Positions 32,804 to 37,014 of a stretch of 64,000 nucleotides of DNA are shown in pieces; positions within the stretch are counted from its first letter, which is position 1; every line of letters starts with the position of its first letter. The notes under the pieces are model-generated. The model saw nothing but the letters and a program-made list of their open reading frames with translations. It was not told where the DNA came from and ran no database searches. The position numbers were made by a program, and so were the translations under genes. Source of the stretch: an uncultured Bacteroidota bacterium (GTDB lineage Bacteria > Bacteroidota > Bacteroidia > Flavobacteriales > Flavobacteriaceae); assembly GCA_902511755.1 (NCBI GenBank), contig CABXGL010000005.1, positions 1 through 64,000 on the forward strand, read 5' to 3'.

Positions 32804-33016
32804 TTATGGTAATTGAAATAAGTCCTCAACTTTACAATTTAAAGTTTTTGCAATTTTTAAAGCTAAAACTGTTGATGGAACATAAACTCCATTCTCAATC
32901 GCATTAATACTTTTTCTTGAAACCTCTGCATTAAAAGAAAGTTCTTGCTGAGTTAAACCAGCAGATTTTCTAAGTTGTTCTAAATTATTTGAGAGTTTTT
33001 TATGGTTCTTACCCAT
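32804..33016 (-). CDS. Small XRE-family HTH regulator
   Basis: LRKSAGLTQQELSFNAEVSRKSINAIENGVYVPSTVLALKIAKTLNCKVEDLF. Confidence 0.92.
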   Translation of the reverse strand: MGKNHKKLSNNLEQLRKSAGLTQQELSFNAEVSRKSINAIENGVYVPSTVLALKIAKTLNCKVEDLFQLP

Positions 33017-33018
33017 AA

Positions 33019-33423
33019 TTATTCTTTTTCAAATTCTTCAACAGCATCAGTTAGTTCCTTTCCAGTATTTGGGTAGAGATATCCAGCTATCATAGTCCCA
33101 ATACCTATTACACCAACCAAAGCCCCAACCCCTTTTAATATACTTCCAAGCGCTAAGTAACCAAGAAGATAGAGACCAATACCAACAAAAATTGTTATAA
33201 CTCCATTTCTACGATAATCTATTGGCTCTTTTCTTCTTTCATCAAAAATCCTTAACAATTCTTGTAATTTAGAAGGGTCATCTAGTTGTTTAGATATCTC
33301 TAATATAGTTTCCCTCTTTCCTTTGCCTTCGTAGTAAAGCCATATAAATACAGCTACTGGGATAACCATTCCTGTTAGTATTCCAAATATTGGTATTAAT
33401 AAAGCTAAGTCAGTATTTTCCAT
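33019..33423 (-). CDS. DUF6249-like membrane protein
   Basis: N-terminal TM, cytosolic segment, two C-terminal TMs; immediately upstream of XRE gene. Confidence 0.6.
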   Translation of the reverse strand: MENTDLALLIPIFGILTGMVIPVAVFIWLYYEGKGKRETILEISKQLDDPSKLQELLRIFDERRKEPIDYRRNGVITIFVGIGLYLLGYLALGSILKGVGALVGVIGIGTMIAGYLYPNTGKELTDAVEEFEKE

Positions 33424-33554: not shown

Positions 33555-34607
33555 TTATAACTTAAGAATATCTGCAAAAACTCCTGAAGCCGTTACACTT
33601 GATCCAGCTCCAGCACCTTTAATAACTAATGGTTGATTTCCATACCTCTCTGTATAAAATAAAATTATATTGTCTTTCTCTTCCAAGTTATAGAATTCAT
33701 GATTTTTGTCAATTTCTTTTAGTGATACACTTCCCTTTCCATTATAAAATTCTCCTACATGTTTTAATTTTTTTCCATTTCTTTTTGCATTTTCAAGCAA
33801 TTTGTTAAAATGATTTTTGTTTTTCTTTAGTGATGAAAATAAATCTTTATAAGAATTTGAAACTAAGCATTTATCAGGTAAAAATGATTCTATTTTAATA
33901 TTTTCAAGTTCATTTTTATAACCAATTTCTCTGGAGAGAATTAATAATTTTCTAGCAACATCAATTCCAGAAAGATCAATTTTCGGATCAGGCTCAGTAA
34001 ATCCTAGAACTTTTGCTTTGTCAACTATTTTATGAAATGAATCCGCTTCCAAAAAATTGTTAAAAATATAATTTATACTTCCAGATAAAACAGCTTGAAT
34101 CGAATGGATTTTATCTCCTGAATCAATTAAGTTTTTTAAAGTATTAATTACTGGTAATCCTGCTCCAACATTTGTTTCATATAAGAAAGGTGTTTTATGT
34201 TTTTTCGAAATTCTTTTAAGGTTATTATAAACTTTATATTTATCTGAGCAAGCTATTTTATTGCATGTAACTACTGCTATTCCCTTTTTTAAATAAGATG
34301 AATATTCTGAAGAAACAATTATTGAGGCTGTGTTATCAATAAAGACACTGTTTTCAAGCCATAAATTTATTGTTTTATTTACAAATTTATCTCTGTTGTT
34401 TTCTAATCCTTGACTTAATTTTGATTTCCATTTTTTTAAACATATACCATCTAAATCAAAAAGCATTTTTTTTGTATTGGATAGAGCTATAACTTTTATT
34501 TTTAGATCAAAATTCTTTTTTAGAAATTTTTTTTGAGTATGAATTTGATTTAATAATTCACTGCCAACATTACCCACACCTGTTATAAATAAATTTATTT
34601 CTTTCAT
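33555..34607 (-). CDS. hom: Homoserine dehydrogenase (stand-alone)
   Basis: ITGVGNVGSELLNQIH, ETNVGAGLPVINTLKNLIDSGDKIHSIQAVLSGSINYIFN, GFTEPDPKIDLSGIDVARKLLIL. Confidence 0.94.
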   Translation of the reverse strand: MKEINLFITGVGNVGSELLNQIHTQKKFLKKNFDLKIKVIALSNTKKMLFDLDGICLKKWKSKLSQGLENNRDKFVNKTINLWLENSVFIDNTASIIVSSEYSSYLKKGIAVVTCNKIACSDKYKVYNNLKRISKKHKTPFLYETNVGAGLPVINTLKNLIDSGDKIHSIQAVLSGSINYIFNNFLEADSFHKIVDKAKVLGFTEPDPKIDLSGIDVARKLLILSREIGYKNELENIKIESFLPDKCLVSNSYKDLFSSLKKNKNHFNKLLENAKRNGKKLKHVGEFYNGKGSVSLKEIDKNHEFYNLEEKDNIILFYTERYGNQPLVIKGAGAGSSVTASGVFADILKL

Positions 34608-34612
34608 TAATA

Positions 34613-35584
34613 TTAAACTTTAAAAATTGGAGATAATAATTCAGTTAGTTTTTTAAACTCAATCAAAAAGGCATCATGACCATGTTCTGATTTGATTTGA
34701 TAATAATGGACGTTGTTTTTTTGTTCTCGAATTTTTTTATAAGTTTTTTTGATTTCAAAATCAGAAAAAAGTATATCTGAATTAATCCCAACTAAATGAA
34801 TTGAACTTGAAATTGAATCAATTAATTTTTCAAAATTTAAGTTATTACCATGAGTTATATCAACAGTTGATAAGAGTCTATTCATGTGAATATATGATTC
34901 TAATGAAAACCTTTTTTTTAATTTTTCTCCATGAAATTCTAACCAATTAACAACTTCTCTTTTGTTTGATATTTTATCTTTCTTAAATCTAAATTTATTA
35001 TTTAGTGATATAGGATTTCTGTATGTTAACATTGCATGAATCCTTGCGTCATTGATTGGATTTTTTGAATTTTTAAGAATTAAATTTTGAAGATGTGTAT
35101 TAGCAATTAACCAATCAGAAGATTTCCAATTAGCAGCTATCGAAATTAAATTATCATAATAGTTTGGTTCTAATGTACCCATTTCCCATACCAATCCCCC
35201 TCCTACAGATCCACCAATTAAAGCATGTACACTAGTAATACCAAGTTGATTTAATGCCAAATTGAATATTTTGGCAATATCTCCTAAAACAAAATCGTCT
35301 ATAAAATCATTATTTTCCCTACCATAACCATTTCCTGGAATATTAAATGAAATAACAGAAAATTTATTAGTATCTATTAGTTTTTCATCACCAACTAACT
35401 TGCTCCACCAACCATTTTTACCAGCTATATTGGAATTTCCTGTTAGAGAATGATTTACAACAACAACAGGATAATCATGATAATTTCTTCCATAAACTTG
35501 GAAGGAAAGATTTACATTTACTTTCCTTCCAGTTTTAATCTCAACATTATTGACAGTAATATATATTAAATTGTCTGTCATCAA
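34613..35584 (-). CDS. metX: Homoserine O-acetyltransferase (alpha/beta hydrolase)
   Basis: VVVNHSLTGNSNIAG, GGSVGGGLVWEMG nucleophile elbow, SEHGHDAFLIEF. Confidence 0.9.
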   Translation of the reverse strand: MMTDNLIYITVNNVEIKTGRKVNVNLSFQVYGRNYHDYPVVVVNHSLTGNSNIAGKNGWWSKLVGDEKLIDTNKFSVISFNIPGNGYGRENNDFIDDFVLGDIAKIFNLALNQLGITSVHALIGGSVGGGLVWEMGTLEPNYYDNLISIAANWKSSDWLIANTHLQNLILKNSKNPINDARIHAMLTYRNPISLNNKFRFKKDKISNKREVVNWLEFHGEKLKKRFSLESYIHMNRLLSTVDITHGNNLNFEKLIDSISSSIHLVGINSDILFSDFEIKKTYKKIREQKNNVHYYQIKSEHGHDAFLIEFKKLTELLSPIFKV

Positions 35585-36880
35585 TTAATCTACAAGAATC
35601 TTATTATCAATTTTTGAAAAAGCTAGTTCCAAATCAGATTTAAGATCATCTAAATCTTCCAATCCAACGGAAAGTCTTATTAAATCTTTAGTTACACCTG
35701 TAGTCAATTGTTGATCATCACTTAATTGTTGATGAGTTGTGCTGGCAGGATGTATAATCAAAGACTTTGAGTCACCAATATTAGCTAACAAAGAAAATAT
35801 TTTTGTTTTATCAGCAATAGTTTTAGCATTCTCATAACCACCTTTAACGCCAAAAGTAACAACTCCACTTTGACCATCAGGCAAATATTTATTAGCTAAT
35901 TTGTTGTATTTACTGGTTTTTAATCCAGGATAATTAACCCAGGAAACTTGTGGTTGAGATTCTAACCATTCAGCTAAGCCTTGTGCATTTTCTGAATGCC
36001 TTTTTATTCTTACATCTAAAGTTTCAAGACCTTGAAGGATTTGAAAAGCATTAAATGGACTTAAAGCAGCACCAAGATCTCTTAGACCTTCAATTCTTGC
36101 CTTTGCAATAAAAGAAGCTTCAGCTAAAACTTCATGATAAATAAGACCATGATATCCAGGTGATGGTTCGGTAAATTCAGGAAATTTCCCGTTTGACCAA
36201 TCAAAGTTACCAGCATCAATGATAACACCGCCTAATGCAGTTCCGTTTCCATTGATATATTTTGTTAGAGAATGAATTACAATATCAGCACCATGTTCTA
36301 TTGGTCTAAGTAAAGCAGGCGTTGCAACAGTATTATCAACTATAAAAGGAACTTTAGCAGCTTTTGCTCTTTTAGAAATCTCTTTAAGATCTAAAACATC
36401 TAGTTTTGGATTTCCTAAAGATTCAGCAAAAATTGCTCTTGTATTCTCTTGAACTGCATTAGCAAAATTTTCTGGATCTGAAGGATCAACAAAAGTTGTA
36501 GTAATTCCAAATCTAGGCAAAGTTACATTCAATAGATTATATGTACCACCATATAAACTATTTGAGGCAACTATATGGTCGCCAGATTTTAAAAGAGTTA
36601 GAAAAGTTGTAGAAATAGCAGCTGTTCCTCCAGCTGTAACAACCGCACCAATCCCTCCTTCAAGAGCAGCAAGTCTTTGTTCTAAAACATCATTTGTTGG
36701 ATTATTTAATCTAGTGTAAATATAACCTGGCTCAGCAAGTGCAAAAAGATTTGCTGCATGATCAGAATCATTGAAAACATAAGAAGTTGATTGATAAAGT
36801 GGAACTGCCCTAGTTCCTTGAGTTAAATTTGTGTCATGTCCAGCATGAAGAGCTTTTGTAGATATTTTTTGATTTTCCAT
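35585..36880 (-). CDS. metY: O-acetylhomoserine sulfhydrylase
   Basis: PLP Cys/Met metabolism family; TRLNNPTNDVLEQRLAALEGG, VDNTVATPALLRPIEHGADIVIHSLTKYINGNG. Confidence 0.96.
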   Translation of the reverse strand: MENQKISTKALHAGHDTNLTQGTRAVPLYQSTSYVFNDSDHAANLFALAEPGYIYTRLNNPTNDVLEQRLAALEGGIGAVVTAGGTAAISTTFLTLLKSGDHIVASNSLYGGTYNLLNVTLPRFGITTTFVDPSDPENFANAVQENTRAIFAESLGNPKLDVLDLKEISKRAKAAKVPFIVDNTVATPALLRPIEHGADIVIHSLTKYINGNGTALGGVIIDAGNFDWSNGKFPEFTEPSPGYHGLIYHEVLAEASFIAKARIEGLRDLGAALSPFNAFQILQGLETLDVRIKRHSENAQGLAEWLESQPQVSWVNYPGLKTSKYNKLANKYLPDGQSGVVTFGVKGGYENAKTIADKTKIFSLLANIGDSKSLIIHPASTTHQQLSDDQQLTTGVTKDLIRLSVGLEDLDDLKSDLELAFSKIDNKILVD

Positions 36881-36905: not shown

Positions 36906-36986
36906 GGAAAGATTTGACTAAATATCTTTGTGAAAGCTACTGCTTTAGCACTTTTTTAAAGAGGTTGCAATCAGTCAAATCGTTCC
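36906..36986 (-). promoter_or_regulatory. Candidate riboswitch expression platform: anti-aptamer long hairpin
   Basis: RNA GGAACGATTTGACT (36986-36973) pairs 13/14 with AGTCAAATCTTTCC (36919-36906). Confidence 0.65.
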
Positions 36987-37006: not shown

Positions 37007-37014
37007 CAAATATA
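37007..37014 (-). promoter_or_regulatory. -7 element (TATATTTG) of the metY-metX-hom operon
   Basis: Minus strand TATATTTG about 19 nt upstream of the aptamer P1. Confidence 0.5.

Follow-up and report, generated by a model that had tools for sequence, protein, structure and literature searches.

Locus and SAM-II aptamer of the metY leader

The window (the whole stretch of 64,000 nucleotides analysed here) carries on its minus strand, in this order, a promoter element, a SAM-II aptamer, a downstream arm, an AU-rich stretch and the genes for MetY, an alpha/beta hydrolase and a homoserine dehydrogenase:

37007..37014, minus strand: flavobacterial -7 promoter element TATATTTG (TAnnTTTG), assigned by sequence; ends 18 nt before aptamer P1
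36935..36994, minus strand: SAM-II aptamer RF01726 (cmscan, 74 bits, E 1.8e-12; gathering score 44)
36973..36986, minus strand: aptamer segment GGAACGATTTGACT (P1 5' strand, L1 and pseudoknot 5' strand), partner of the arm
36930..36951, minus strand: hairpin GTGctAAAGC-AGTA-GCTTTCAC, the second competitor, which would engage the conserved 3' strand of the aptamer
36920..36929, minus strand: AAAGATATTT, located between the aptamer and the arm; it would supply the 5' strand of the sequestering fold predicted for the SAM-bound state (OFF-state MFE, aptamer blocked)
36906..36919, minus strand: anti-aptamer arm AGTCAAATCTTTCC, complementary to GGAACGATTTGACT at 13 of 14 positions, with the core GTCAAATC
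36880-36878, minus strand: AUG of metY
36874..36878, minus strand: GGAAA, which shares the G of the AUG; with SAM bound, it is predicted to pair with UUUCC of the freed arm
36860..36867, minus strand: AAATATCT, within the metY coding sequence; it would supply the 3' strand of the sequestering fold
35585..36880, minus strand: metY, the gene under control, encoding a PLP enzyme of the O-acetylhomoserine sulfhydrylase type (Pfam Cys_Met_Meta_PP, 453 bits)
34613..35584, minus strand: alpha/beta hydrolase, second operon gene after metY (Pfam Abhydrolase_1, 53 bits)
33555..34607, minus strand: homoserine dehydrogenase, third operon gene (Pfam Homoserine_dh, 171 bits)

The three genes are a methionine operon under SAM-II control, in line with what is expected of the RF01726 family: genes of methionine and SAM metabolism lie downstream of SAM-II both here (metY, an acetyltransferase-like hydrolase and homoserine dehydrogenase) and in relatives (metK). 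The hydrolase is probably homoserine O-acetyltransferase, a name taken from its context. MetY of the window is 100% identical over 431 residues to that of 'Flavobacteriaceae bacterium isolate bin92o', and its other relatives belong to marine uncultured Bacteroidetes or Flavobacteriaceae. Directly downstream of the operon, a small HTH regulator (MGKNHKKLSNNLEQLRKSAGLTQQEL...) stands beside a two-helix membrane protein (minus strand, 32804-33016 and 33019-33423). The promoter motif TAnnTTTG was found in 118 of 122 metK leaders of relatives, compared to 8.9 expected in shuffles, and nearly all copies end 9-19 nt before P1. At similar distances, it was present in 9 of 21 metY leaders (2.1 expected).

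The covariance-model match to RF01726 exceeds the gathering score of the family. An alignment of 21 aptamers and the cmscan alignment revealed the conserved SAM-II features, namely the core GATTTGACTGATTGC, the A-rich loop, GCTAAAGCAG, P1 (GAGG/CCUC) and the pseudoknot strands ACUG/CAGU, and the core was nearly identical to that of the 20 relatives. Judged by its aptamer sequence, the window RNA is an ordinary SAM-II member, and the aptamer of the metY leader presumably binds SAM. It is the one SAM-II aptamer of the draft genome to which the window belongs (1.41 Mb, 57 contigs).

A scan for terminator-like hairpins with a U-run returned none in the window leader, no terminator was seen in the metY leaders inspected by eye, and the 55 nt between aptamer and AUG contain no Shine-Dalgarno (SD) sequence. 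This agrees with an earlier note on this DNA, which had reported neither a poly-U tract nor a Shine-Dalgarno and had set the platform apart from SAM-II leaders with the SD in the pseudoknot; a pseudoknot-strand SD near the AUG was looked for and not found. The window platform is neither of the SD-in-pseudoknot nor of the terminator type.

The anti-aptamer arm in the window and in related leaders

The arm ends 25 nt before the metY AUG, and both its position and its 13/14 complementarity to the aptamer segment, as described in the earlier note, were confirmed. When the downstream leader was dinucleotide-shuffled 20,000 times, this complementarity was never reached (best shuffle, 12). Similarly, the aptamer-arm duplex of -20.7 kcal/mol (shuffle mean -7.1, sd 2.0) was equalled by 1 of 20,000 shuffles. 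The pairing is longer than the 14-mer, with AGGAA/UUCCU followed by one C-U mismatch and then by an 11-bp run including a G-U pair. The leader folded at -25.0 kcal/mol compared to -14.5 ± 2.8 kcal/mol for its shuffles (z -3.8; 0 of 200), and its predicted MFE structure consists of the anti-aptamer hairpin and the GCUUU hairpin, the second competitor put forward in the earlier note. The signature of this second hairpin, CAG-N1-4-GCTT, was kept in 18 of 20 metY leaders. In a folding series of the growing RNA (nt 1 being the first G of P1), P1 formed at nt 28, the aptamer was complete at nt 49 and the anti-aptamer fold became dominant at nt 76; the interval open for the decision is about 27 nt.

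In a sample of 300 family genomes, RF01726 was present in 285, and in the genus it was present in 19 of 22 genomes. From 218 fetched loci, 194 aptamer matches and 184 distinct leaders were obtained. Sorted by the gene that follows, these comprised 138 metK, 22 metY, 13 DUF6580, 4 small lipoprotein-like, 3 QueF-like, 1 other and 3 unassigned leaders. Leaders with a usable start site were tested one by one: the strongest duplex between the aptamer 5' segment and the downstream leader of the same RNA was compared to 100 dinucleotide shuffles. All 22 metY leaders of the genus and its near relatives had such an arm at p ≤ 0.05 (median z -3.6), as had 62 of 117 metK leaders of the family (median z -2.0), and none of the 13 DUF6580 leaders. 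Two control segments of the aptamer scored in 0 and 2 of the 22 metY leaders and in 35 and 19 of the 117 metK leaders. The arm effect is hence specific to the 5' segment, although some metK leaders may also carry mimics of other aptamer segments. Outside the family, six RF01726 loci were picked, of which two were located by a simple pattern; their arm p values of 0.015 and 0.14 are too few to date the arm.

In 17 aligned metY leaders, GTCAAATC is a nearly invariant block with variable flanks and spacing. Leaders of metK, for example L080, L088 and L144 (Flavobacterium and others), often carry CTCCTTTAGC or GCAATC, the complements of GCTAAAG and GATTGC. These may be alternative anti-aptamer arms in lineages without GTCAAATC.

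Within the metY group, the aptamer segment and the arm core are both nearly invariant. Position n1 is a C opposite A or T, and the base of the aptamer that is mismatched with the arm in the window is also mismatched in most other metY leaders. As the metY aptamer segment is fixed by its own function, it offers little variation to test, and the compensatory evidence therefore comes from metK. Specifically, 78 metK leaders were set in a register fixed on the ATTTG/CAAAT core alone, n1 being the position two before ATTTG. With the opposite arm base, n1 formed 46 Watson-Crick pairs compared to 28.2 expected (z 4.9), whereas 23 other offsets, with the same relatedness, gave |z| ≤ 1.8; the signal appeared at the correct offset only. 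The covariation of n2 (z 5.1) was not relied on, since the neighbouring offset 0 scored 6.3 and a lineage effect is possible.

Additionally, metK arms paired better with their own aptamers (mean -13.5 kcal/mol) than with swapped ones (-11.7 kcal/mol; 0 of 5000 permutations; z -9.6), compared to a z of -2.4 for a reversed-segment control. The leader L211 has the divergent aptamer GAATAATTTGGTC, and its arm GACCAAATTATTC matches the change at every position. Tree-based independent pairs on the MetK tree gave only 2-3 well-supported contrasts, so that the covariation is not phylogenetically decisive. The leader alignment suggested in the earlier note thus revealed a conserved arm in metY and compensatory change in metK; in metY, the nearly invariant sequences leave no room for compensatory change.

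The downstream arm as an anti-aptamer, which the note had proposed, was borne out by its presence in 22/22 metY leaders and about half of the metK leaders and by the metK covariation. A correction concerns its scope, as the platform is not limited to this locus but recurs across the family. The sequence comparisons support the arm as an evolved anti-aptamer and as the on/off part of the leader across much of the family.

Predicted folding of the start region and the proposed switch

Translation in Flavobacterium proceeds without an SD, with initiation tuned by structure between -20 and +20 (PMC6847099), and flavobacterial ribosomes make no use of Shine-Dalgarno pairing (PMC9976891). The output of the leader should therefore be access to the start region. 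With the aptamer blocked, the predicted OFF-state MFE of the window leader (-9.0 kcal/mol) pairs AAAUAUCU, in the first codons, in an AAGAUAUU-type helix, and GGAAA at the AUG with UUUCC. The same fold was predicted for leader L016 at -10.7 kcal/mol. Since the sequestering helix of the window uses the coding strand, a covariation test is impossible there. The predicted OFF helices use the arm or the sequence that precedes it and thus exclude the anti-aptamer hairpin. The anti-aptamer fold (-26.4 kcal/mol) compares with -9.0 kcal/mol for the locked-aptamer downstream fold plus -7.9 kcal/mol for the aptamer without its pseudoknot. It wins at equilibrium, so SAM would have to win by kinetics or by binding energy.

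The predicted openness of the start region with the aptamer free minus that with the aptamer locked was on average +0.053 for metK leaders (shuffles, -0.032; 32 of 119 at p ≤ 0.05), +0.083 for metY leaders (shuffles, +0.007; 5 of 20 at p ≤ 0.05) and +0.007 for DUF6580 leaders. The window showed a small change from 0.53 free to 0.49 locked (+0.04, p 0.14), and almost no change was predicted for seven metY relatives. Furthermore, in about 13 metK leaders the anti-aptamer helix is crossed by another, strong helix, e.g., GTTGCTTT/AAAGCAAC or TTTACTTTTTAG/CTAAAAAGTAAA. The sequences of this helix differ between leaders; it brackets the arm, and in most of these leaders its end lies 0-6 nt upstream of the AUG. 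A crossing helix as a rule for all leaders was rejected (median z near 0, no better than shuffles in metY or metK). With a predicted openness effect that is clear in part of metK, modest in metY and small in the window, the proposed mechanism is well supported in kind and weakly predicted here.

We regard a SAM-II riboswitch with an anti-aptamer/anti-sequestor platform, acting on metY translation independently of an SD and OFF with SAM, as the probable reading of this leader. The transcript would start immediately ahead of the aptamer. Under low SAM, the arm at 36906-36919 would emerge about 20 nt after the aptamer and invade P1, L1 and the pseudoknot 5' strand, and the GCUUU hairpin would capture the conserved GCUAAAGC strand. 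The aptamer would thereby be dismantled and the AU-rich, SD-free start region would be open (ON). If SAM is bound before the arm is synthesized, the aptamer would retain its own strands, and the freed arm and the preceding sequence would fold onto the AUG region (OFF). As the sequestering fold crosses the anti-aptamer helix, the two are mutually exclusive. We infer from these folds and comparisons the switching itself, its OFF direction with SAM, the action on translation and not on decay, and the kinetic control.

The same switch might have its output at the transcript level, with the SAM-bound leader exposing the RNA to Rho or RNases, the anti-aptamer hairpin protecting it and the folding at the start codon being incidental. 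The weak start-region change predicted for the window and several metY relatives would fit such an output, and SAM-II alters mRNA stability in Sinorhizobium meliloti (PMC9373788). Nevertheless, the start-proximal crossing helices and the start-region effect of the metK leaders, not seen in shuffles, speak for translation, and with no intrinsic terminator and no positive decay or Rho signal we consider a transcript-level output rather unlikely. The earlier note had named accessibility of the AU-rich 5' UTR or RNA decay as the output. Of these, control at the start region is plausible in a leader without a terminator, and decay found no positive evidence. Specificity for one aptamer segment, together with the covariation and the swap test in metK, weighs against an aptamer that acts alone through a pseudoknot near the start region, the arm serving another binding partner or having arisen as a by-product. 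This explanation gains from the invariance of the metY arm core, where conservation alone cannot prove pairing, and from the DUF6580 group, which works without any arm; on balance it appears improbable.

Among alpha- and beta-proteobacteria, SAM-II commonly acts by intrinsic attenuation of transcription (PMC2258182). This output is disfavoured to the point of being very improbable here, as neither the window leader nor, by eye, the metY leaders contain the required hairpin and U-run. Chance complementarity was considered because AT-rich leaders pair easily; the outcome of the 20,000 shuffles and the arm in all 22 metY relatives leave it a negligible probability, and it was rejected.

Relation to known platforms and to other SAM-II leaders of the family

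SAM-II RNAs of Bacteroidetes and marine DNA (RF01726, 'SAM-II long loops', PMC2864571) share with the window the aptamer sequence and structure, the taxon and the methionine/SAM genes. The family record covers the aptamer; the arm and the predicted start-codon sequestering fold are features of the window's platform. In the main texts searched in the open-access literature, no account of a Bacteroidota SAM-II expression platform, an anti-aptamer arm or a start-codon fold was found. The SD-in-pseudoknot form of SAM-II (Sargasso Sea type; S. meliloti metA, PMC9373788) has the translational OFF logic upon SAM that is proposed here, but the window has no Shine-Dalgarno, and its control would depend on an arm of its own and on folding at the AUG. 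SAM-II with a terminator (S. meliloti metZ) likewise sets aptamer strands against downstream sequence, the window having no terminator.

By analogy, the window platform would work like an anti-aptamer/anti-sequestor translational switch. In the general riboswitches of this type, the P1 5' strand is likewise taken by a downstream arm without ligand and the sequestering hairpin is excluded. In contrast to these, the target here is an SD-less AU-rich start region, the arm also covers the pseudoknot strand, and the second hairpin takes the other conserved strand.

A different arrangement was found in the 13 leaders of DUF6580 membrane protein genes in relatives from the genus (L017, L020, L024, L025, L026, L028, L029, L030 and L159-L163). 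In each of the 13, an ATG opens a uORF exactly 2 nt downstream of the aptamer CAG. The stop of this uORF lies within a few nt of the DUF6580 start or overlaps it in 11 of 13, lies 14 nt before it in one and is in frame in one. No metY, metK or lipoprotein-like leader showed this arrangement. The motif was detected in two of the 300 family genomes; these two belong to the window's genus, the only one in which it has been found so far. Among metY leaders, an ATG right after CAG was seen in some, was not kept in others and was not coupled, and a uORF was rejected for this group. Judging by this layout, it is possible that the pseudoknot covers the uORF start in DUF6580 leaders and provides SAM-gated translational coupling. 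The M. tuberculosis ppe2 B12 riboswitch gates a translated uORF and, by coupling or reinitiation, the downstream gene (PMC11260477). DUF6580 leaders resemble it with a different aptamer, ligand and phylum, and theirs is not the platform of the window. With one SAM-II in the window's draft genome, the DUF6580 uORF platform was not seen there.

In L005, L006, L011 and L027, SAM-II precedes a small lipoprotein-like gene (MKKLLFVLFVFCVSCESD...), the first 90 residues of which gave no Pfam match; two of the four leaders, L005 and L027, have the GTCAAATC arm. In L140, L155 and L164, a second SAM-II copy in three genomes is followed by an ORF matching QueF (queuosine pathway), with other short ORFs in between. 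If the assignment holds, QueF is an unexpected SAM-II target.

For Flavobacteriaceae as a whole, we tentatively propose a family-wide SD-independent SAM-II platform, in which the arm competes and the freed leader closes the AUG, together with a second platform in the window's genus, in which a uORF 2 nt after the pseudoknot is coupled to DUF6580; we would not yet call this joint picture probable. Since Bacteroidota ribosomes ignore the Shine-Dalgarno, the textbook route of translational riboswitches, hiding the SD, is unavailable to them. The platform described here would be a concrete, testable alternative, namely to act on the start region itself by hiding or exposing it. Leaders of metK in a large family carry the platform, which adds a layer of prediction to an Rfam family defined by its aptamer.
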